Shown here: piece by piece, positions 1 through 13,100 of the stretch
How the letters are laid out: each line of letters opens with the position of its first letter
How positions within the stretch are numbered: the stretch's first letter is position 1
NCBI GenBank assembly: GCA_025531455.1
Contig: JAMYHL010000053.1
Span: forward strand, 1-64,000
Reading direction: 5' to 3'
Origin: Apiotrichum sp. Y4204
Lineage: Eukaryota > Basidiomycota > Tremellomycetes > Trichosporonales > Trichosporonaceae
DNA: 64,000 bases
Program-made: the position numbers and the translations under genes
Notes under the pieces: model-generated
Database searches by the model: none
Told to the model about the DNA's origin: nothing
What the model saw: the letters and a program-made list of their open reading frames with translations, nothing else

Positions 1-477
1 TCTCTCCGGCGATATGCCGAGGCTGAGGCAGTCTTCTGCCAGTCATTGCCCCGGGAGCGGGGCCGTCCGATCCTATCGCCCAAGGGGTGGCGACGCCCGT
101 TCCTGTCGGTCTTGGGGCAGGACCATCTGATCTTGTCGCCCATGAGGTGGGGCGCCTGGCGGGTATGCGGCTACTCCTTGGAGTCCTAGGTGCGGAGGTT
201 ACAGCATATCCTCCGCATCCCTACCCATCATCGTACTCATATCCCTACCCATGGTGCGTAGGGACGTGTGTCCTACTCATATCCGTTCCCACCACGACAA
301 TCGATAGCGAGAATGGGTGCAGCGGCGCGGAGCAATGGCTTCGCCACTCCGACGACGAAGTGGGAGGGGCACCCCACGAGTACACCCCGGTTGACCGGCA
401 AACATCGTCTCCGCAATGGGCAACGATAGGAGGCAAGGAATCGCAGCCTCGACACTGGCGATTGTCGGCTGCCACAA

Positions 478-502
478 AATCGTCCGGGTATCCCGGACGA
501 TT
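478..502. repeat. 25-bp palindrome, copy 1 (covariant)
   Basis: Arms AATCGTCCGGG and CCCGGACGATT around spacer TAT; 11 of 11 pairs. It differs from the consensus arms (AACCGTCCGGG/CCCGGACGGTT) by a matched change in both arms, so pairing is kept. Confidence 0.95.
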
Positions 503-664
503 CCGACAGAAATCGCCCTCCTGAGGCGGCTGCGTCTTACTTGTCGCCGTTGCCCCCGGTGTCCTCTTCGCCGCTATCGGAAGCGAGAGGGGCAGCCGGG
601 GCTGTGGTGCCTGCTGCTCTCCTCTGTCATTTCGCCGCCGAAGGCTGCGCACCAGTCATGACGC

Positions 665-689
665 AACCGTCCGGGCTTCCCGGACGGTT
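665..689. repeat. 25-bp palindrome, copy 2
   Basis: Arms AACCGTCCGGG and CCCGGACGGTT around spacer CTT; 11 of 11 pairs. It lies outside the polyprotein frame. Confidence 0.95.
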
Positions 690-774
690 CCGGCCGAAGT
701 ACCAGCGCGGAGCGACTGTGTCCTCTCTTCCTTCTTTGCCGGCAGCGCGCACACAGCGGCGGCACCGATAGCCT

Positions 775-3700
775 CTACTCGATGTCGGGCAGTGTCGAAG
801 AGTCTGCCGGCCGCTGTCTCTGCCGCTCTGTCAGACTCTCCTCTCCCCCCCCACTCGAATAGGCCTGTCCTCGGGCCTCCTGTGGTTCCTCGACAGTCTG
901 TCTGGTTCCCAGGTCCACTCGCTCCCCGCGAATACGCTGGGGGCGATAAACCACAGGGTTCGGTCTCCCAAGCGGCTCGGTTCTCGGATAGAAACGTCGG
1001 AGCCGGTTGTGGCTAATCCTGCTAAGGCGTGTGTCGTTCATCGGAGCGCCGTCGAGTTCGGAGACGCGCACCGCACCGTAGGCGCCCACTTCTCGCACGA
1101 CGTACGGTCCCAAGTATCGGTCCGCCCGCCGCACCGCCATACTGTTGTCCTGTGCCGAATTGCGAACCAGGACCAGATCCCCCGGAATGAAGGAACGGTC
1201 GGATTGAGAGTGCTCTCGAGCCGAGTTGTGGTTCAGCACCGAGTACTCACGGGCGCCCTCTACTGCAAGCCGAGCAGCCGCTTGGTCCTCTGGCAGCCGC
1301 TCCAACTGTCGCGCTCTAGCGACTAGTAGGTCGGCTGTGCTCATCCCGTCCTCCCACCGCGAGACGAGGAAGGTGCCGTAGGTCGCATCTATGGGTAGGA
1401 TACTGTTCTGCCCATAGAGGAGGTAATAGGGAGTGTGGGAAGTAGTTCTCTTCGCCGTTGTCCTATCTGCCCATAAGACATAGGGCAGCAAACGGCCCCA
1501 CTGCGGTCCGCGTGTGCGCATCAGTTTGAATAGCGCCTCTTTGACCTGCGAATGCCCCCGCTCCACCATGCCGTTAGCAGCCGGGTGGTGGAACCCGGTG
1601 CGTATGAGCGGGATGCCGTAAGTCCTAAGACATTGGATAAACTCCTTTTGGAATTCTGGCCCGTTGTCTGTGCTCACGTGACCAATTAGCCCAAAGCGGC
1701 ATATGACGGACTTGAAGAAGAAGTCCGCTACTGCTGCCGCTGTGGCTTCTCTCAGGGCACAACCTTCTACCCATCCCGTTAGGTCATCCCTAACCAAGAG
1801 GATTGTCCTCTCTCCTCGGTAGCCCTCGGGCGTCGGCTGAGGACCAGGGTCCTCGGGCATCTTCACACAGTCAAGAGCCACACGACCAAACACCGTAGGC
1901 ACCGAGAGGATACGCCGCGCGTCCTCATACATACGCTTGTCCCTCGCCTGGCAATCTGGGCACGATCGCACCCATTGCCGCACGGAGGCTACCATGCCGT
2001 CCCAATGGAACCGATCGGCTACCGCCACATAGGTAGATTTCTCTCCCCTGTGGCCATGCTCCTCATGCAGTCCCCGCAGAACCTCCTTGATATCCTCCGG
2101 GCGAGCAAGCACAAGGGTTGGTATCCTTGCTTCCCACCCGCGGATTATGCGGCCGTTTTGCAGCCAACAGCTCGCTGCCAACTGCCTGATCGTGGCACGC
2201 TGGCGGCGTGTCATATCGGCACCCCACTCCTGTTTGTCAAGGAACAGGCCTACTTCTCGCCAGCGGCTTGGTGCGGGATAGTAGGTGGCGTCAAACATGG
2301 GACGGCCGGCCTCTTGACGAAACCGTCCGGGAAACCCGGACGGTTCTCTCTCTTCCCCTCCGCCGCCCGCGGAGGCGGTAGAGGCAACCGAGGCAGCGGC
2401 CGCGAGGACGACAGAGCCGCAATGCCTATCCAACCACTCCTCCGGATCTGTGTCGCTATCTGTGTCCTCTTCAGCCCTAGGACGTCGCGACAACCCGTCT
2501 GGTGCCTTGTGGCGCTCCGCCGGCACATGGCGCAGTATAAAGTCATTCAACTTGATATACCAACACCACCGAGCCTCCGCGGCCGAGGGAAGCACAGGCG
2601 CATTGATCATCTGCTTGATTGACGTGCAATCAACCTCGAGAATGAACCTTGTGCCATGTACCCAATATCGAACCGCACGCAGAGCAACGAACACGCCATA
2701 GAGCTCCAGCTTCGGCTGGCTATAGCGCTTCTGCACCTCATTGAAGTAGAACGACAGGAAGCGAGCTATATACCGCTTCCCGTCTGTGCCCATCTGTCCG
2801 AGAGTGACTCCGCACCCTTCGGTACTAGAGTCGACGGCTACGATAGGCGGCTCTTCCTCCACACGCTCATAATCGAGCCCGCGGATCGCCCCGCTGGCGA
2901 GCACGGCCTCCTTTATCTCTGCCATTGCTCGCTCTTCTGCGGCGCCCCACACAAACTCGTCCTGCGATCGCTTCGTCAAGAGAACTAGCGGTCTGGCTTT
3001 CTGGCCATAGTGGCTAACCCAGTTGCGGGCTATCCCTACAGTCCCAAGGAAGCCGCGGACTTCCTTCACTGTCCTGCAAGGTGGCCAATTGGCAACCTTG
3101 CTCAGGGCGCGCTTGGTAATGCGGCGTCCCTCTGCCGAACAGAGGTAACCGACCACCTCTATCTCTGGCACACCTAATTGGACCTTCCCTCCCGAGAACG
3201 TTCCTCCGTAGCGGCTCATCTTGTGCAGGACACGGTTCAATTGTACCGCATGCTCATACACAAACTTGCGCACGCCTGGTGCCTGTTCCTTAGGCCTCCC
3301 GTCGGCTCCCAGGTACTGTGTCCTGGGACCACAGATGACTACGTCATCGATATAGACATGGAGTGTCTGTTGCAGCTCCTCTGCGAAGACGAACGCCATA
3401 ACCTTCTGGAACGCGGCCACCGCATTCGTCCACCCTTGCGGCAGTCGCCGCAACCGCATGGTTCCCATAGGAGACTCGAATGTCGTCAAGTCTCGTGACT
3501 CGACATGCAGCGCCACCTGGTCATATCCAGAGAATGCGTCTAGACCGGTGTACACATGACAACCAGCAAGCACCTCTGTCATCTCGTCCATATGCGGAGG
3601 GAGCCCTGCGTCGCGAACAGTGACACTGTTGAGCTTCTGCAAGTCATGCACCAACCGCACCCGACCGTCCTTCTTCTCCACAGCGAAGAAGCCAGAACGA

Positions 3701-6700
3701 TAGGCCGACTGTGACCTCTCATACAAGCCCGACTCGATCTTCGACTTCAGATATGCGATGACCTTGTCGCGTGTCCGCAAAGGCAAGCGGATCGCTCTGT
3801 CCTGCCAAGGGCGGTGCTCTACCACTGGTATCTTGACCGGTGGTACGAACTCCTCTCGGAAGCCACCCTTCTCTTCTTCTACCCACGCCAAGGCCGCCTC
3901 GTTCTGCAAGAGCACTCCTGCGAACATAGCCTTCTCTCGGGTGCTCAGGTTGTCCCCGAGAGCACTGAACAACGCTTCTCGCCTTTCAGCAGTCAGACGA
4001 GTACCGGCGGGCTGCTTCTTCCACTCGGGCAACTGCAAGTCTACCGCTGGAAGGCCGGACCAGATGTCCTCCGGCTCTCGCATGAGCAGCTTGTCCTCCT
4101 CCGCCATGCCCGTGTTCACAGGCCTCTTCTTCTTCGCCACACTCTTATACACCCCGAGGACTTCCACCGCGTATCGCTGGCGAATTTCCTCGTCTAGACT
4201 CGAGCTGCCACTGCTCTCTTGCTCGAGAACAACGGCGGCGTCGGACTCGTCATCGAATTCCACCTGCAGTGCCTCCAGGAGAGATTCGACGAAACCGTCC
4301 GGGATACCCGGACGGTTGTCCTCCGACCACTCCGCCGCCGGGCCGCCTATCTCATACACACAAGCGGCATGGGACAACACTCCACTCGCGCCCTCTGTAC
4401 CCTCAGGAGACACGCCAGGGCCGGCCGTCACATGACCGACCCATATCATGCTCCCAGCGGCCGTGGAATGCAGCGCCATAATCCGCTGGTCTTCCTTGTC
4501 TGTGCCGCGGCCGAGAAGCCGCAGCTCTCCTAGCCGGAGAGACCGAGGCTTTCGTTGGGGACTGAAGTCCCGTACTGTAACCAGCGGTCCCGACACGGGA
4601 TGCATGGCCATCTCGACCGTGCCCTGCTCTGTGTTCATGGACATGACTCGACGGTTCCCACTCCAGTAGAAGTTGACCAGGTTCCGCGTAATGAACGGCA
4701 TTCCGAGGAACACTTTGTCCGCAGGAGCCGAACGGTTGACCCAGAACACATGCTGCGTGGTTACGCCGGCCACTGTGATAGCACCGACGAAGTAACCCGC
4801 CAGGGGACGCGGTTCCCCATGGACACCAGAAACCGAGAACGATATGTCGCTCCGGATCCCTACTGCCTGACTCTGGCAGATCTTGTCGAAGAACTCCGCC
4901 GACACCATGTTTATCTGCGATCCGTCGTCCACGATAACATGGCACGGCACACCACAGAGCACGGCAGCAACAAGCACCGTCCGTACAGAGAGAGGGAGAG
5001 GCCCATACTGCTCACCCCAGATCTCTCCTCCTCGGATATCCTCCTCGTCGCCCTCGAGTGCGGCATTGTGTGCCGAGACGTCCCCATAGGTTGTCTCCAC
5101 ATCTGCCGAGCAGATTGGGACTTCCTCTGACGGCAACGCCGAGGTCACAGAGGCACCAGCGACAGGCACCTCTGCCGTGGTCGAGGGCTCGGCTTTGGTC
5201 GGTCTTGCAGTTTCCTGCATGTACCGCACAAGCAATGGAGAGATTGCCATTATCTCCATCAGCGTCACCTCTCCCTTCCCGAGGGCAGGTGTCGCCAGGA
5301 GCTTGTGGCAGACCTTCCTCCAATCTGCCTCCCTCACGAGCAGCGAGTCCTTGGGAACCAAGCGCTGAGGCAGCCTAGGCTCCTCCGAGGCACTGGGCAC
5401 CACTCCTCCGGGCCGAGCAAACCTTACGGCCTTCGGTCCGCCCGGTGGTGCCACCGCCTTGGCGATCGTAGCAGAACCGTCCGGGTTTCCCGGACGGTTT
5501 GGCGCTTTGGTGGTCGGTACAGAAACCTCCGGGTTTCCCTGACGGTTCTTTGCCCGAGCCGCACCAGACACAGGAGCTACTGCCGCGGGGGCACCGTTCG
5601 CAGGAAATAGCCCCGATGTCCTCCCGGGCCGTCTCCCCGAGACTGCTGGCGCCTCCTTGCTATAGGGTGCCGGCCGGGGTGGGTTTGCCGCCGACGAACG
5701 TGTCGCAGCAAGAGCCGACAGAGTCCTCCCATCTTCTTGGGAGAGCAGGGCGGCCAGATGCTCTACCACTGCCTCCCGGAGATCTAGGTCTGACTCTTCT
5801 GCTTCCTCTGAGAGTCCCCAGTCATTGCCAAAACCAAACGGGAACTCCGGCTCGTCTCCGAATGTCGAGAATACTGCCCCTTCGGGGTAGTCTTCCCCTT
5901 CGAAGAACTCCTCCTCTTCCTCGTACTCTCCGGCCGCGAGGCCGTCAGAGTAGTCGTATCGCGGATCGCCATGCCCCGTGTGGCCAGACACCGACAAGGT
6001 CCTCGCCACCTCCGGAGCAGTAGCGCCGGATCTCGCCCTCGCCATTGCAGCCGCGTCCCCGACAAGCCGGAGCACCATTTGGTATGGCGTTTCCCCTTGA
6101 TCTGGGACGATTGCTCTGCCATCCAAAGGAGAGCCGGGGACCGACCAGCGGCTTGCCGAGCGCCACCGGCCGCTCTCTGTCTGGAGCCGGACTATCTTTA
6201 TCCAGCCCTTCTCGGCACACTTGTTTCGCTTCTCGCAGCGGAACTGAGGATGCCCGTGCTCCCCGCAGAAGTAGCACACCAGCTCGCCGCCGTTCCACCC
6301 TACGGCCCCGCGAGGCATCCGCGGCTCCTGCCCTAGCGGTGCTCCTCCGGGAGCCCCATAGGTCCTCCCCATGCCAGGAGAAGGAGCGGCCGGCCGCGCG
6401 TGTGCCAAACCTGCCGCTCCGTGCGCTGTCAACAACTGTCCGGATTTCCCGGACGGTTGCCGTCCGGCACCACCGAAGTAGGTAGGCTGGGGCAAGCGTA
6501 CCGATACTCCCAGCGCGTTGGCTTTCGCACCAACCCGCGCATGCGCGACCAGGTACTCCATCGAGCCGAGTCCGGAAGAGCGAGCAACATGGAATGCAGC
6601 CTGCTCTTCCTTCGCCAGCGACTCGCCGTCTCCCAGAGTGTCTCCTACAGAGGGCGCCCAGTACTGTGCGACTGTCGGACACTGCCTCTTCAAACTGGCA

Positions 6701-8127
6701 TGGAGCACGCCATACTCGGCAGCCGAGCGGGCGCGCTCTTCAGTCGTACCTCTCGGCACTCCCAAAGCCAACTTCCCCATCTTCTCCACCAACTCGTCGA
6801 CCGACATCTTGTCGGCCGACAAGGCGCCGCGCGAGCCATAGGCAGGAGGTCTGGTCTTCCCTGTCTCCCGTTCTGACTCCGCAGCAGACACTCGCTTCTC
6901 TTTCGCCTTCTGTGCCTCTACAGTGAGCAAGGCATGCGACACGAGGCTCGGTTGCACTCGTCCCGCTCGGCCGGCTCCCCACTCGTTCTGAGGATGGAGC
7001 ATCTTCTTGAGTGCCTCTGCGACCCATCTCCACTGGGGAACAGTCTGACCTGTCCACCCATGCTCCTTCTCCCAGTCCCTCCCGTAGCGACTCTCAACCA
7101 AGTCTCCTAGAGCGCTAGGGAGGCACGAGAAGAACAGTTCATCTGCGAACCGCTTCCCGCCTCCTCCTCTCTCGTGGCGTACGGCAAGCCGGCCGAACAG
7201 ACCAGTCAAGCGAACCACATCCTCAAAGGAAGACAGCCCTTGCAGCCCCAGTGCCTCTGCCGCGGTGCGGAAGTCCATTGACGACAGTGTGGCAATGCGA
7301 GTTCGGTCCGGGTAGCTATCCTTCAGGAAGGCTACGAACCTGTCCCAAGAGGATATGCCCCACACGGCCGTGGCGTCTTCCAATTGCTCGCGAACCGCGG
7401 CGCCCGTGTAACGAACGTACAGTGCGATCTTCTCCTCATCCCGGAGGTCTGCAGGAGCCTCGCGGTCGAACCACTCTAAGTGCTCAACCAACGAGGAACC
7501 TTGTCCGTCCCACATGCGTGCCTTCTTCGAAAAGGGGTCCGGTATAGGCTCCCGCCTCTCCGGCCGATCAAACCGCTCGACACGAGGGCCCCATGAGAAG
7601 TCTCTGTAGGGTGCCTCTCGGGGCTCCCCACCCGTAGGGTGGTGATGCCTCTCGTTCTCTATCTGCCTGTGTGTCCCCGAGGGCGGCTCCCGCGTGATTG
7701 GGTAACCACTCCTCGTCGCCCAATCCGTCCGGGTTTCCCGGACGGTTTGGTCACTTGTCTCCTCTCGCTGCGCCGCACTGTCGTGCGCGCTATCCTGCGG
7801 GGCAGGAAACCTTTCGGCTCCTCCTCCGAGGCCAGGATGCTCCCTCCTCTCCTCAGCAGACATGTCTGTGGTGTCGCTGTGAGGAGGAGGCTCCCTGTAC
7901 TCACGGAAGGCCGCCACATTCATCCTCGCCGCCGACTCCGCACTCCCTTCGGCGGCTCCGTACCCCTCTCCGTCCCTCTGCTCTACTACGTTGTCCGTTC
8001 CTCTCGCCATTGGGTATCTTATTATTAGCTTGGTGGGTATACTTTGTGTGTTCTTTGTTGTCGGTGGTGTCTTGCAGCATACGATAACTCGGTCGGGGGA
8101 AAGCGCAGGCGTCCGGCGCCGGCGCAT
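775..8127 (-). CDS. Ty3/gypsy gag-pol polyprotein, intact
   Basis: One continuous frame of 2450 residues from the ATG at 8127 (2411 residues from the ATG at 8010, start MARGTDNVV, an equally good start). It encodes the structural and enzymatic proteins of a retrotransposon. Approximate order, numbered from 8127: Gag in the first ~600 residues; a CCHC zinc knuckle (CYFCGEHGHPQFRC, residues 618-631); a long Pro/Ala-rich linker; an aspartic protease with VIVDDGS near 1066; reverse transcriptase with YIDD near 1595; RNase H with VAVDSS near 1753; integrase with an HHCC finger (about 2026-2066) and a DDE core (VSTDNGPEF near 2158, MVERGH near 2190); and a GPY-like segment (YLGPYVV). No chromodomain is seen. 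There is no frameshift between gag and pol, so Gag:Pol ratio control would have to be post-translational or otherwise. Six copies of a 25-bp palindrome are translated within linkers. Confidence 0.95.
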   Translation of the reverse strand: MRRRRTPALSPDRVIVCCKTPPTTKNTQSIPTKLIIRYPMARGTDNVVEQRDGEGYGAAEGSAESAARMNVAAFREYREPPPHSDTTDMSAEERREHPGLGGGAERFPAPQDSAHDSAAQREETSDQTVRETRTDWATRSGYPITREPPSGTHRQIENERHHHPTGGEPREAPYRDFSWGPRVERFDRPERREPIPDPFSKKARMWDGQGSSLVEHLEWFDREAPADLRDEEKIALYVRYTGAAVREQLEDATAVWGISSWDRFVAFLKDSYPDRTRIATLSSMDFRTAAEALGLQGLSSFEDVVRLTGLFGRLAVRHERGGGGKRFADELFFSCLPSALGDLVESRYGRDWEKEHGWTGQTVPQWRWVAEALKKMLHPQNEWGAGRAGRVQPSLVSHALLTVEAQKAKEKRVSAAESERETGKTRPPAYGSRGALSADKMSVDELVEKMGKLALGVPRGTTEERARSAAEYGVLHASLKRQCPTVAQYWAPSVGDTLGDGESLAKEEQAAFHVARSSGLGSMEYLVAHARVGAKANALGVSVRLPQPTYFGGAGRQPSGKSGQLLTAHGAAGLAHARPAAPSPGMGRTYGAPGGAPLGQEPRMPRGAVGWNGGELVCYFCGEHGHPQFRCEKRNKCAEKGWIKIVRLQTESGRWRSASRWSVPGSPLDGRAIVPDQGETPYQMVLRLVGDAAAMARARSGATAPEVARTLSVSGHTGHGDPRYDYSDGLAAGEYEEEEEFFEGEDYPEGAVFSTFGDEPEFPFGFGNDWGLSEEAEESDLDLREAVVEHLAALLSQEDGRTLSALAATRSSAANPPRPAPYSKEAPAVSGRRPGRTSGLFPANGAPAAVAPVSGAARAKNRQGNPEVSVPTTKAPNRPGNPDGSATIAKAVAPPGGPKAVRFARPGGVVPSASEEPRLPQRLVPKDSLLVREADWRKVCHKLLATPALGKGEVTLMEIMAISPLLVRYMQETARPTKAEPSTTAEVPVAGASVTSALPSEEVPICSADVETTYGDVSAHNAALEGDEEDIRGGEIWGEQYGPLPLSVRTVLVAAVLCGVPCHVIVDDGSQINMVSAEFFDKICQSQAVGIRSDISFSVSGVHGEPRPLAGYFVGAITVAGVTTQHVFWVNRSAPADKVFLGMPFITRNLVNFYWSGNRRVMSMNTEQGTVEMAMHPVSGPLVTVRDFSPQRKPRSLRLGELRLLGRGTDKEDQRIMALHSTAAGSMIWVGHVTAGPGVSPEGTEGASGVLSHAACVYEIGGPAAEWSEDNRPGIPDGFVESLLEALQVEFDDESDAAVVLEQESSGSSSLDEEIRQRYAVEVLGVYKSVAKKKRPVNTGMAEEDKLLMREPEDIWSGLPAVDLQLPEWKKQPAGTRLTAERREALFSALGDNLSTREKAMFAGVLLQNEAALAWVEEEKGGFREEFVPPVKIPVVEHRPWQDRAIRLPLRTRDKVIAYLKSKIESGLYERSQSAYRSGFFAVEKKDGRVRLVHDLQKLNSVTVRDAGLPPHMDEMTEVLAGCHVYTGLDAFSGYDQVALHVESRDLTTFESPMGTMRLRRLPQGWTNAVAAFQKVMAFVFAEELQQTLHVYIDDVVICGPRTQYLGADGRPKEQAPGVRKFVYEHAVQLNRVLHKMSRYGGTFSGGKVQLGVPEIEVVGYLCSAEGRRITKRALSKVANWPPCRTVKEVRGFLGTVGIARNWVSHYGQKARPLVLLTKRSQDEFVWGAAEERAMAEIKEAVLASGAIRGLDYERVEEEPPIVAVDSSTEGCGVTLGQMGTDGKRYIARFLSFYFNEVQKRYSQPKLELYGVFVALRAVRYWVHGTRFILEVDCTSIKQMINAPVLPSAAEARWCWYIKLNDFILRHVPAERHKAPDGLSRRPRAEEDTDSDTDPEEWLDRHCGSVVLAAAASVASTASAGGGGEEREPSGFPGRFRQEAGRPMFDATYYPAPSRWREVGLFLDKQEWGADMTRRQRATIRQLAASCWLQNGRIIRGWEARIPTLVLARPEDIKEVLRGLHEEHGHRGEKSTYVAVADRFHWDGMVASVRQWVRSCPDCQARDKRMYEDARRILSVPTVFGRVALDCVKMPEDPGPQPTPEGYRGERTILLVRDDLTGWVEGCALREATAAAVADFFFKSVICRFGLIGHVSTDNGPEFQKEFIQCLRTYGIPLIRTGFHHPAANGMVERGHSQVKEALFKLMRTRGPQWGRLLPYVLWADRTTAKRTTSHTPYYLLYGQNSILPIDATYGTFLVSRWEDGMSTADLLVARARQLERLPEDQAAARLAVEGAREYSVLNHNSAREHSQSDRSFIPGDLVLVRNSAQDNSMAVRRADRYLGPYVVREVGAYGAVRVSELDGAPMNDTRLSRISHNRLRRFYPRTEPLGRPNPVVYRPQRIRGERVDLGTRQTVEEPQEARGQAYSSGGGEESLTERQRQRPADSSTLPDIE
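2321..2345. repeat. 25-bp palindrome, copy 3 (in coding frame)
   Basis: Arms AACCGTCCGGG and CCCGGACGGTT around AAA; 11 of 11 pairs. It is translated on the minus strand as EPSGFPGRF in the linker between RNase H and integrase. Confidence 0.95.
4293..4317. repeat. 25-bp palindrome, copy 4 (in coding frame)
   Basis: Arms AACCGTCCGGG and CCCGGACGGTT around ATA; 11 of 11 pairs. It is translated as NRPGIPDGF between protease and reverse transcriptase, a different frame from copy 3. Confidence 0.95.
5475..5499. repeat. 25-bp palindrome, copy 5 (in coding frame)
   Basis: Arms AACCGTCCGGG and CCCGGACGGTT around TTT; 11 of 11 pairs. It is translated as NRPGNPDGS in the linker between zinc knuckle and protease. 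Confidence 0.95.
5524..5547. repeat. 25-bp palindrome, copy 6 (decayed, in coding frame)
   Basis: A degenerate copy 49 bp from copy 5: one base missing in one arm and one substitution in the other (AACCTCCGGG / CCCTGACGGTT around TTT). It is translated as NRQGNPEVS. Confidence 0.8.
6434..6458. repeat. 25-bp palindrome, copy 7 (in coding frame)
   Basis: AACTGTCCGGA and CCCGGACGGTT around TTT, with two arm differences. It is translated as QPSGKSGQL in the Gag linker before the zinc knuckle. Confidence 0.85.
7723..7747. repeat. 25-bp palindrome, copy 8 (third reading frame)
   Basis: The core arms CCGTCCGGG and CCCGGACGG around TTT are perfect, with one outer mismatch. It is translated as TVRETRTD near the Gag N-terminus, the third of the three possible frames. 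Confidence 0.92.
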
Positions 8128-8383
8128 AATTATAAGGCGTATAGTTTGCTTCTCTTCCTCTGGCGTCTCGAGTGTCCGGATCTTGGCGCTGCCCCTATTG
8201 GCTATGCACTACTGCCTCTCTTGGCAGAGCGGTCCGTGCGTGAGTCGCTGTCTCCTATTGGAGGCCGCAAGCATCCCAGTTGGCGAAGCCTGGCGGTGAG
8301 ATGCTTGTCCAGTGTCGAGTTGCGGTGTTGGCATGCTCCTATTGGCAGCCGGGTGGTGGTACGATAAGCGTGGTCGATGTTCA

Positions 8384-8735
8384 GGTCCGTCTCCGTTGGC
8401 TATGCCCGTCGGGGAGAACGGTCGTTGTTCCGGTCTGTCTGGTCCGTCTCCGTTGACTGTGTCGAGCGGGGGAGAACGGTCGTGTCGTCTGTTGTCTGGT
8501 CCGTCTCCGTTGACTATGTCGAGCAGGGGAGAACGGTCGTGTCGTCTGTTGTCTGGTCCGTCTCCGTTGACTATGTCGAGCAGGGGAGAACGGTCGTGTC
8601 GTGTGGTATCTGGTCCGTCTCCGTTGACTATGTCGAGCGGGGGAGAACGGTCGTTATGTGTGTTGTCTGTTGTCTGGTCCGTCTCCGTTGACTATGTCGA
8701 GCGGGGGAGAGCGGTCGTTGTTGTGGTCCGATAAG
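8384..8735. repeat. 57-bp tandem repeat array, about six units
   Basis: Units begin with GGTCCGTCTCCGTTG at 8384, 8441, 8498, 8555, 8612 and 8676, giving spacings of 57, 57, 57, 57 and 64. The middle units are nearly identical; the first unit and the 64-bp unit are diverged. Each contains a GGGGAGAACGGTCGT segment (GAGAGCGG in the last). The array lies between gag and the presumed 5' end of the retroelement. Confidence 0.97.
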
Positions 8736-9251
8736 CGGCGGTGTTCGCACACTAGAGAGAAGCCCCATACGAGGCTCCATTTTGTGGGGGTTTTACCTCG
8801 GCCGGCATAGGAGTAGTCCCCTCCGACGCCGTCGAGTCCTCTCTAGTGGTTACTGCTACGCGCCGCTCCATGAGTCTGTTGTCCGTGTCGTAGTACTGGA
8901 GGGCCGAGAGCCCTCCTCCCTCTCGTCTCTTGCTCGCGCGGTCCTTCTGTCATATGTGGTTGTCGTTTCATATGTCGGTGTCGGAGCAATATGCTCACGA
9001 CGACGCCGAGCCTTTCGGCGGCAGCACGGCCTGCAGCAACCACCTATGGTGGTTGCCTTGGCAGCGGTGACAAGCTAGAAGCCTGAAGCGGCCGACTCGA
9101 AGAGTTGGAAGGATCGTTTGGTGTGAGGGAGAGTGTGTGTGTGTCATAATGCTACGGAGGTCCTCGTCGATATGTCCTATAGTCTACGTATCCTATGTCC
9201 GCACGGCCCTATCGCCGTCTCCGTGCAACCCGCCCCTTCGCGGATTACAGA

Positions 9252-9276
9252 AACCGTCCGGGTAACCAGGACGGTT
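9252..9276. repeat. 25-bp palindrome, copy 9
   Basis: AACCGTCCGGG and CCAGGACGGTT around TAA, with one mismatch. It lies upstream of gag and forms a tandem pair with copy 10 at a 29-bp period. Confidence 0.92.
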
Positions 9277-9280
9277 ATGA

Positions 9281-9305
9281 AACCGTCCGGGTTTCCAGGA
9301 CGGTT
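9281..9305. repeat. 25-bp palindrome, copy 10
   Basis: AACCGTCCGGG and CCAGGACGGTT around TTT. It shares the same arm mismatch as copy 9, which points to local duplication. Confidence 0.92.
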
Positions 9306-9645
9306 GTCGCGGCGGAGATATCGCCGGACTTCGTTTTCCCTTCTCGGTTAACCATCGATCTCCGTACTGCCGGTAGCCATGTGTCCTGTGTCCTTTGTCC
9401 TTGTGTCCGTGCGCCGTCCTTTGGTGTGTCCTTGTGTCCTTTGGTCCCATGTGTCCTTTTACCGTCGCGCCCTATTGCGCTCCCGCGGCCACGGCCGTAC
9501 GCGTCGTCTAGTTGCCGATACCATTATCTCGCACCACACCGTCGCCGAGTCCGCATTCCGACTCCAAGACTGCAGAAGGATCGCCGCAAGTCCGGACGGA
9601 GTGGAGTTAGAAGGATCGTCACTCGCCCCTAACTCGCTCGTGACA

Positions 9646-10152
9646 AACCCTCCCCACTCACAGGAAAGTCCTGAAAAACTCCGACAAGACCTGCACGTGG
9701 CAACCACCCACTCGTCTAGCACAGATTTGTTTGGCCTGGACAAATTTGACACAGAGTGTTGCAGCTCCAGAGGTTTGCAATGATTGATTCCACTCACCAC
9801 TGCTGTTCGTTCCTCCATTAAGATGTACTGCAGCAGTCGGGGCAAAGTCAAAGACGCAAGCTAACATTTCCTGCATCACAATACAGATATTTGCCTTTTA
9901 CTCAGTCAAGGGTGTCAGTAAATTCTGATCAAGCACTGCGATGTCGTGATTCTTTATCTGCATAATATGGTTTCGTAATTCATCAGCGTTGCGCGCTGTG
10001 AGACACTTCGTGCCGGGGTTCGCGTCGTGTTGTTGTCCCCAGATTGATTGCCTCGTCAGCTCCGATGGCACGTTACATTCGACATCGAAGTGGCTCAGAA
10101 GCGGAACGAATGGTTACACCGTCCTCTATGCATGTGAATGATGTGTGTTGTG
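9646..10152. other. Intergenic, right flank of retroelement
   Basis: This holds the boundary region and the 3' flank of the IBtk-like gene. I see no gene, RNA or strong repeat. Confidence 0.5.
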
Positions 10153-13100
10153 CTAGTTATTACTGTCCTCCTTTCCCTTGTCCTTGCCCGTTCTACCACG
10201 GCCTCGCCCGCGCCCTCGAGCGCTACTGCCGGGTCCAGTACCGCTGCCGCCATGGCCGACTGCGCTTCCTCCTAGGGTGGCCTTGGCGCTGGCTTTAGAA
10301 ATGCTGAACCCATTCGTCCGGTTGGTTCCACTGGCGCTTTCGACCCCACCTCCCAATCCACCTGCGGTCGTGGTTCCATTCGCCTTCCCAGCCGGTCCAT
10401 CGGCTTTCCCTCCAGGCTTGTGGTTATCCATCCGGTCCGCGTCCTTCTTGTCGAATTCCTTCTTGTCCGCCTCCTTTTTCCGTCCGCCGCCACCCCTGTG
10501 CGGCGTGCGTTTCTGCTGTGCACGCCCGCGCCCGCGCCCTGCAGAACCCCCCCCACTTGGCCCCGCCCCGCCAGCCGTGAGGCGTGCCTCCTCCTCCTGC
10601 CACCACCGCATGAACTCCTCCTCCTGGGCCTTGTCTTGCCGAGCGCGCGCCTCTTCGGCTTGAATCTCGGCGAAACTTTTGATGCTCTTTTGCGAAACAC
10701 GCGCCGCCGCCTCACGCTCCTGCTCCTGTATGGCAAGCAGTGAGAACGCCTGTGTCGGTGCCTGTGGCGAAGTGGCGACCGGCGGCGGCGGAGCGTACGT
10801 CGTCGGTGTTGACCATGCTGGGCCCATTGCGGCGCTGCGTCGCGGGGTGGAGGTGTGTTTCTGTGGAGTTATGATACCTGCCCGCTGTGGAACAGGCGAA
10901 GCTTGCGAACCTGTCGGTCGGGAGATGACATTTGACAACGGAGAGCTCGAACCAGGAGACGTGGACAGCCCCTGTTGGGCCTGCTGTGCTTGCACAGCCG
11001 TGAGTGATGTTTTCCGAGTCGTCTCAACCGTACGCCAACCTCCTGATACCCCCAGTGAGGATCCGAGCACTGGAGAGGTATTGGATGGACTTGAGACGGG
11101 TCCAAGAGACGGCGATCCACTTCCCGGTACGACGCGCCGTGTTGATGACGACGTTCCCTGGGGCTTAGCGGCCGCGGTCTCGGCCATGATGTTCCGCAAG
11201 TCAACCTTCTCAGATTGGATGGTCTTGGACTTCCACACCGGCGCCCTACTCGGCCCCGCAAGGGTGAGAGGCGTGATGGGTCGGCTGCGGTCTGTGCCGT
11301 TTGTCTGAGGCGTCCCTGGGGTGCTGGGTTCCATGTCCATAGTAAAGATCTCGTCTATGGCCGGAGCGGTGAGTGGCTTGAGGTCTGGGGTAGTATGCGG
11401 CGAGCTTGAGGAGCGACGGCCGGTGTCGCGCGGGACCAGCTGCGGGGAACGTGTTTCCCGTGTCTTCCAGCGTTGCGGTACACGGACGCGCGGAATCGGA
11501 ATGTCCTGCAGTGCCAGCCAGTCGCGGTGCTTGGCCATCAAGTCGGCAATGAGAACACCGGAGCGGGGCACGATGGCACGGTCAGACTGCTTGGTGGCGA
11601 TGGCGGTCGAGAGATCGCGCAGTACATCGTCCTCCATGTCGTCGAGCAGGCCGCTCTCGAGCATGGTCTCCATACATACGCTGATGTAGTCAAAGACACT
11701 CTTCTTGAGCGCTGCGGCCTGATAGAAGGATGCTTCGGTGGCAAGTGCCGCGGCATTGTAGGGGTTGCAATGGCTCGCAATCACTCGCGAGCACACGAGC
11801 ACAAGCCGGTCCACAAGGAGCTCGGTCGCAGCTGCAAGCACCTCAAACACAAAGTCGAGGAACTCATCCAGCGTCTCCTGGTGGAGATAGTCGAACAAGT
11901 CGTCTTCGAGCCCTTCGTGCATGTACCTGAAGACGAGGTTCATCGGCCGCCACCGGAGGTGAGCCATCTGAATGACGAGCATGCCATCGCTCCGGCTGCG
12001 CTCCAACGTCCAATCGCGGTCTGCGAACAGTGACTCGAAGAATGGGCAGCGAGCGCGCAGGAGGGTCGAGTGAACGGCAACCTCACGGTCTGCGAGAACG
12101 ACAAGCGTGTCGCATTCACGTGATGGGGGTGTGAGGGTCGCTGAGTGGAATGCGGCCAGATCGGCTGGCAGAGATTTCGTAGGAATCGGCGCCTTGGATC
12201 CAAGGTTAAGGACCTGGACCAAGGGCGTCAGGTCCAGCACCTCTGCATACCGCTTGAGATTAGCCTTGATATCCGCAATGGGGAGTTTCATTTCCGGGAA
12301 ACGCGTCATGAGCAGATGCGAGACGCGCGAATCCCATATCACCGCCATGTCGTCGGCATAGAGGTACTGGAGGAGAAGCAGGGCAACAAGCGGGTGGCAC
12401 GCTCTCATCTCGAGGACTGAGTCGCGGAAGTGCAGGCCGTCCACATTCTTGCCCTCCAACACGAGTGCAAGCACAGGAGAGCGCAGGCTGAGGATCACGC
12501 TGTGCGCAGGGATGGCATACTCGCCTACGCGCACATGAACGTCACTGCCCAGCAGTGACTCGCTCCACGCAAAGAGCGACTCGTTGTTAGTCGCTTGCCA
12601 GCGGTCGATAATCTGGCACATGGCGACTGCGACGACTGAGTCATGGGTAACGGAATTCGACCCCTCGTCGTCCTCTTCGTCGTCCTTATGGGTGTTCTGC
12701 GCGCGTGCGAAATCTTCGGCATTCATTTGGCTCTCGAATCGCCGGAAATGCGGTTGCAGGAGGAACATGTCGTCCTCCAGTGTTTTCCCCGTCAGATCAA
12801 TGGGGGACGGACGAGCGTCAACGCGGACAGCAGCGAATGCCCCGGATTCGTTCGCTGCAACCTTGACCACGCGCTGGAGGTACGGGATGCGGCGGAAGGC
12901 GAGCTGTCCCGAGCCAGCCTTTAATCGTTGCCTCACAAAGACATGTCCCGAGTAGGTACAGATGATAATCGTACCGTCGGAGCCGAGTGCCATATCACGG
13001 ACTGCAGTAAAGCTTTTACGCAGCGCCCACTGCACCTGTGGTTTGACTGTGACGTGGCGATCGCGGACGTCCTTCGATGCTTCCTCGGATGGATGAGGCA

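Follow-up and report, generated by a model that had tools for sequence, protein, structure and literature searches.

The window analysed here covers the initial 64 kb of contig C132 from the assembly of Apiotrichum sp. Y4204 (48.9 Mb, 182 contigs). At its left end lies a Ty3-type long terminal repeat (LTR) retrotransposon that carries ten copies of the palindrome AACCGTCCGGG-n3-CCCGGACGGTT between positions 478 and 9305. The copies were detected with up to three mismatches; at this threshold 100 dinucleotide shuffles gave none, and window 9306-64000 had no match. These palindromes (family 1) are complete dyads with a fixed, A/T-rich centre of three bases; they are private to one element family, in which they occupy the LTR, exons, non-coding parts and what is probably an intron.

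The sequence-only reading of this stretch had listed the same ten copies and none in the other ~54 kb, and both observations hold, except that the sixth copy starts at 5523 and not at 5524. Its five copies with perfect arms are confirmed (665, 2321, 4293 and 5475 exactly, and 478 through a paired C/G to T/A change), as are the six spacers that it named. Across the whole assembly, where repeat counts are lower bounds, the same threshold yields 14 sites against 0 with a reversed-pattern control: ten on C132 and four on contig C10 (C10:116983-118806). Confinement to one retrotransposon is therefore true of the family, with the four further sites in a second partial copy. A 21-mer of the palindrome at up to two mismatches has 16 sites genome-wide, 13 of them inside the element (control 7), and its inner 14 bases with a gap of 0-12 bases have 14, of which 9 fall inside the element and 5 outside (control 12). 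Since matches beyond the element are at or below control level in both searches, the palindrome is not in excess outside it, and the similar density throughout the host that the sequence-only reading had allowed for is not found. A host transcription-factor site in ordinary promoters was likewise rejected for this palindrome, which shows no excess over the control there.

Table 1. Features of the Ty3-type element and its palindromes in the window.
Feature	Position	Strand	Remarks
Palindrome, spacer TAT	478..502		Downstream of gag-pol; one compensatory C/G to T/A change
Palindrome, spacer CTT	665..689		Downstream of gag-pol
gag-pol, single open frame, 2450 aa	775..8127	-	Reverse transcriptase (RT), RNase H, integrase zinc-binding; integrase core under cut-off
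Palindrome	2321..2345		RNase H-integrase linker; reads PSGFPGR; GACGA to left
Palindrome	4293..4317		Stretch preceding RT; reads NRPGIPDG; GACGA to left
Palindrome	5475..5499		gag-pol, outside Pfam domains; reads NRPGNPDG
Degenerate palindrome, 3 mismatches	5523..5547		48 bp from 5475, similar flanks; local duplicate
Palindrome	6434..6458		In gag; reads PSGKSGQ
Palindrome	7723..7747		Close to gag N-terminus; reads TVRETRT
57-bp tandem repeat, 5.8 copies	8384..8718	-	Leader between LTR and gag
Primer-binding-site-like TGGAGCC...	8766..8779	-	3 bases inside LTR, by inspection
5' LTR, 756 bp	8783..9538	-	TG...CA on sense strand; 94% identical copy C10:116516-117240
Palindrome	9252..9276		In LTR; window LTR has two, C10 LTR one
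Palindrome	9281..9305		In LTR; core same as sole C10 LTR palindrome

The order of RT, RNase H and integrase, the TG..CA LTR and a 4-bp ACGG duplication, known for the second copy only, identify a Ty3-type LTR element. The zinc-binding part of the integrase scores above its cut-off and the core (24.7 bits) below; a Puccinia protein is among the gag-pol homologues. The 3' end of the window copy (copy B) falls beyond the contig start. In the C10/C1 copy (copy A), the last 77 LTR bases, in plus-strand view, open contig C1 (C1:1-77), with 77/77 identity to C10 and 75/77 to C132; ACGG precedes the LTR on C10 and follows it on C1. When duplication lengths of 3 to 6 were tried, the flanks were identical with 4 only. 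With this length a MULE transposase frame from C10 runs to residue 930 and meets a zinc-knuckle-like motif on C1 in frame at residue 881, whereas lengths of 3, 5 and 6 end the frame at 794, 823 and 793, respectively, without the motif. From the LTR end identity, the ACGG flanks and the restored frame, we infer that C10 and C1 are probably the two sides of one insertion in a MULE transposase gene. The gene cut by copy A corresponds to L005:4251-6812 and L021, with the 4-bp duplication.

The palindrome-bearing family is thus present in at least two partial copies. By inspection, a purine-rich stretch adjoins the C10 LTR on the sense strand, as expected ahead of a 3' LTR. Of the four palindromes in the visible 3' part of copy A, the LTR contains one and a second lies past it; the other two fall in what looks like a short intron (GTAAGT...CAG) of a gene on the opposite strand. 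A DNA search with the element returned, beyond itself, only a distant relative on contig C90, short stretches, and palindromes matching one another. The end of C10, C132:1 and C1:1 all fall within the element, so that the assembly may lack further copies. In the 3' part of the window copy, positions 117-423 include two pieces of 47-48 bp that are 87-94% identical to C109:213474-213589 and C46:346149-346264, in another order, with weaker and shorter pieces next to them; the stretch is possibly a captured gene fragment.

The sequence-only reading had described conserved arms with a free spacer, and this contrast is not supported. The spacer is three bases long in 14/14 sites, A or T at 40/42 of its bases in an element with 60.5% GC, and TTT or AAA in 9/14 sites. 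In the 13-copy set (the 14 sites minus the C10 LTR copy, counterpart of 9281), changes affect 13/286 arm bases and 5/39 spacer bases (Fisher p = 0.051). In the same set, the pentamer GACGA stands next to the core in 4/26 half-flanks (to the right of both intron copies, to the left of 2321 and of 4293), and identical flank pairs number 6 against a mean of 0.53 expected, a count reached by 0/2000 random sets. Shared flank bases on either side of the core suggest that a slightly longer unit, of ~25-30 bp, was copied in both orientations. Copying of a unit, as the sequence-only reading had proposed for the hairpin or dyad, is in this sense upheld.

Within gag-pol, six palindromes lie in three reading frames (3, 2 and 1 copies) and give NRPGxPDG, PSGxPGR-like and TVRETRT peptides, always outside Pfam domains. 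Because three frames are used, the palindrome is no peptide motif, and its independence from reading frame supports that part of the earlier interpretation; a polyprotein protease site was rejected on the same ground. The three peptide patterns were found in 0/30 gag-pol homologues, all of which are at most 48% identical, with linkers that align poorly. The arms are free of stops in all frames and on both strands with 6/7 observed spacers; the TAA spacer, confined to the LTR, introduces one stop. The use of three frames, the placement outside domains, the stop-free design and the copied flanks are all as a selfish palindromic mini-repeat would show them, one that resembles Rickettsia palindromic elements or the mitochondrial GC clusters of fungi, copies itself within the element and renders it no service. 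We regard such a parasite as a rather unlikely explanation. No site was found beyond the element family in 48.9 Mb, no target-site duplication was seen by eye around the sites, and the sole difference in copy number between element copies resembles a local tandem duplication: the pair 9252/9281, 29 bp apart, corresponds to a single palindrome in the C10 LTR, and as both members share a CCAGG variant, the extra palindrome arose locally.

The pair 5475/5523 has the same tandem look. Such pairs, together with the small number and close likeness of the copies, are what would be expected if slippage during replication, together with template switching, had neutrally multiplied a GC-rich palindrome within one recent lineage and its copies had not yet decayed. 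This by-product is very unlikely, since the sites are scattered across 8.8 kb on C132 and 1.8 kb on C10 with few arm changes (13/286) and the palindrome of a related family is conserved within otherwise decayed repeats, a point that also speaks against the selfish repeat. A single ancient tandem duplication, the other possibility that had been left for all copies, was rejected because the tandem look is limited to these two pairs.

The conserved counterpart is found in the distant relative on C90, which is 70% identical in amino acids across RT/RNase H (589 residues) and 55% across integrase (441 residues). A de novo census showed that its palindrome differs from family 1 and has the form AACCCGGAA-n5-TTCCGGGTT (family 2). 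An exact search for the two arms with 0-8 bases between them gave 11 sites against 0 in the control, every one with a centre of five bases (C90 5, C142 4, C7 1, C120 1). At up to three mismatches there are 31 sites (control 8), 12 of them at exactly three; at up to two there are 19 (C90 7, C142 4, C120 4, C7 3, C111 1), and 18 of these 19 better sites fall on the four contigs with known element sites. The seven C90 palindromes lie in diverged tandem units of ~337 bp, in which palindrome columns are 89% identical and other columns 56% (53% and 56% over the 40 columns to the left and right). A 92% copy of C90:1-1406 stands at C110:438561-439977 and may be a solo LTR derived from this relative.

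Family 2 also occurs in LTRs of the Copia type. On C142, an intact-looking Copia element (LTR 383 bp, 99.7%) has two sites per LTR, ahead of a TATA-like motif by inspection. Related LTRs are found on C7 (93.5%) and C120 (80%); the C120 LTR sites are decayed, and the good sites of that contig (48059, 48260) are ~2 kb distant, next to an LTR-like piece of 74 bp. The sites on C142, on C90 and in the C7 pair near 83.8-83.9 kb are outside open reading frames (ORFs) of at least 150 aa. The presence of one palindrome in a Ty3 lineage and in Copia-type LTRs argues for either a host protein or borrowing. By inspection, TCCGGG/CCCGGA is common to both palindromes in opposite arrangements, a pattern that sites of related binders might show.

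A hairpin in the genomic RNA, acting in packaging, dimerisation or RT pausing, is the least favoured of the three roles proposed earlier, and we consider it unlikely. Four single-site stretches of the sense strand do fold into a hairpin (z -2.7 to -4.8), a property that any such palindrome must have and that does not discriminate a hairpin from a dyad. The paired change at 478 is the only compensatory one in family 1. Over the 13 copies, 93.7% of cells are paired, a level reached by 196/500 shuffles, and the covariation is reached by 92/500; since compensatory pairing does not exceed that of shuffles, RNA pairing is not favoured as the thing kept. Most changes are one-sided; by count, the pol-sense strand has one change that G-U pairing would accommodate and the opposite strand two. 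When the LTR stretch is folded in sense, its two neighbouring palindromes pair with each other and do not form two hairpins (z -5.8). Two sites lie in the probable intron of the opposite-strand gene. No known RNA family was found in window 1-10500. In family 2, assessed on 14 sequences (13 distinct; one LTR twin and decayed sites left out, as were C7:57820, C120:37100 and C111:404120), one inner pair covaries, with a score reached by 1/500 shuffles and paired cells by 2/500, although this covariation is partly G-U, on one strand only.

Related proteins are encoded opposite to pol in both lineages, on C10 beyond the 3' LTR and at C90:4012-5340. They align with 27% identity over 370 residues (E 2e-21, one-to-one with composition correction off), and a genome-wide search with the C90 protein found C90 and C10 (E 3.6e-9) and no third locus. 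The C10 gene lies between the 3' LTR and the contig end, with pol not on the same contig; the C90 gene is on the contig of pol, where an LTR is unproven. By inspection, both proteins conserve the cysteines C-x2-C-x6-C ... C-x2-C-x5/6-C. Fungal Zn2Cys6 regulators bind inverted repeats of the CGG type, and CGG/CCG triplets also occur in both palindromes, which are dyads with a constant spacing. Compared with these regulators, the antisense proteins show a similar cysteine pattern, but the linker between the cysteine halves is longer than in the consensus, and no Pfam match was obtained. This cysteine-rich (Cys-rich) protein is, speculatively, a candidate binder of the palindromes.

The fixed dyads, their privacy, the conserved counterpart on C90 and the placement ahead of a TATA-like motif (in the window LTR the pair is at LTR positions 234 and 263, ahead of a TATA-like motif at 357) resemble sites of a dimeric protein. 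In line with this, no lone half-site at up to one mismatch occurs in the visible element, nor does one in the 53.5 kb of the window beyond it. Among the proposed roles, such sites fit best because the C90 sister element has its own conserved dyad; the mini-element remains a rival. The best reading has roughly an even chance of being correct: the palindromes would be element-owned dyads, recognised in duplex DNA by a sequence-specific protein dimer that acts on the promoter or chromatin of the element. A unit of ~25-30 bp would spread through short duplications within the element, and gag-pol linkers would tolerate new copies, since the arms carry no stop codon in any frame when the spacer is the usual TTT or AAA. 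The binder may, more speculatively, be the element's antisense Cys-rich protein, changing along with its sites in the way of Arabidopsis VANC and VANDAL.

Several observations weigh against these element-owned sites. Six of the ten window sites fall in the gag-pol frame, which is unusual for regulatory sites and departs from the mainly non-coding placement of VANC-type motifs. Lone half-sites at two mismatches are slightly scarcer, if they differ at all, in the element (2 in ~13 kb) than in the rest of the window (17 in 53.5 kb), and at three mismatches their density is equal in both. The sharing of family 2 with Copia-type LTRs also points to a host protein, and no orthologous copies of the internal family 1 sites were found in this assembly. 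For the candidate binder, no Pfam zinc-cluster match was found up to E 10 with the C90 protein and two C10 pieces (the first C10 exon aside), searches for outside homologues returned only an identical protein for C90 and none for a C10 exon, and the fold prediction of the C90 protein is unusable (pLDDT 34). Finally, in four further loci compared among the LTR places found (14 Ty3 and 5 Copia), long-armed palindromes occur only as matching pairs or singly.

The idea that all LTR elements of this genome come with palindrome families was rejected, as these four loci did not support it; one of them also has three short palindromes that share an 8-mer. Three loci have one identical hairpin at each of two places (L042:1196-1220 and 8250-8274; L044:372-397 and 7762-7787; L041:577-598 and 7374-7395), and these probably sit in paired LTRs. 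In other organisms, the exact 23-base core occurs in 10 bacterial and 2 viral-contig stretches, and a shorter core in 11 viral-contig stretches, the former 2 among them, always as one copy per stretch. One (L058:382-406) falls within a frame resembling a replicase, on a short contig of RNA-phage type, and another lies between listed ORFs. In the 12 bacterial and viral stretches, tblastn found no related element; among the matches listed, tblastx of the two viral stretches gave only short ones (E 3e-4 or weaker), and with L058 blastn matched nothing but the palindrome. These occurrences were taken as unrelated hairpins.

Palindromic elements of Rickettsia are also inserted in reading frames, and they are much longer and spread over unrelated genes; the present palindromes are restricted to one retroelement family, with no excess outside it. 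Short palindromes that look mobile are also known from fungal and sponge mitochondria, as GC clusters and hairpin elements, whereas the contig here has a Ty3 element and ordinary genes. A closer parallel is offered by the VANDAL elements of Arabidopsis, which are DNA transposons. There a short motif is private to one element family, in many copies per element, with a different motif in a related family; the motifs occur in tandem repeats and introns, and the anti-silencing protein VANC is element-encoded, with binding shown (PMC5735166, PMC10398659). The VANC motif has 9 bases and is mainly non-coding, and palindromes are not mentioned in that text (PMC5735166, PMC10398659). The present family likewise has a private motif, enriched in one element family (14 sites, control 0) and rare elsewhere, with several sites per element, two of them in a probable intron, and a different motif in its relative, which lies there in tandem repeats, though that one is shared with Copia-type LTRs. 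Unlike in VANDALs, the element is of the LTR type, the motif is a dyad, sites also occur in exons and the binder is only a candidate.

Antisense ORFs between pol and the 3' LTR are described for the plant Ty3 elements Grande, RIRE2 and Retand (PMC7264820, PMC11963269). In Retand the repeats are family-specific and the proteins have a TRP28 domain, and palindromes within these elements are not discussed in the accessible parts of the sources (PMC7264820, PMC11963269). The Cys-rich protein here differs from that of Retand in having no Pfam match. A 2020 review calls the functions of retroelement antisense ORFs yet unknown (PMC7264820). In the literature searched, a private-motif system with an element-encoded factor was found for VANDAL elements only, and palindromes of this kind were not seen reported for any fungal retrotransposon, most subscription journals lying outside coverage.

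A bolder possibility, which we hold to be rather improbable, is that this LTR lineage has its own control or anti-silencing system: a predicted antisense Cys-rich binder and a private dyad placed in the promoter, the exons and the intron. Between the sister lineages, protein and dyad would have diverged in step, and one of the dyads would have been borrowed by a Copia-type element. If so, antisense retroelement ORFs would gain a testable job, the binding of their own family's dyads, and LTR elements would be seen to run a private-motif system with sites tolerated in their own coding sequence.

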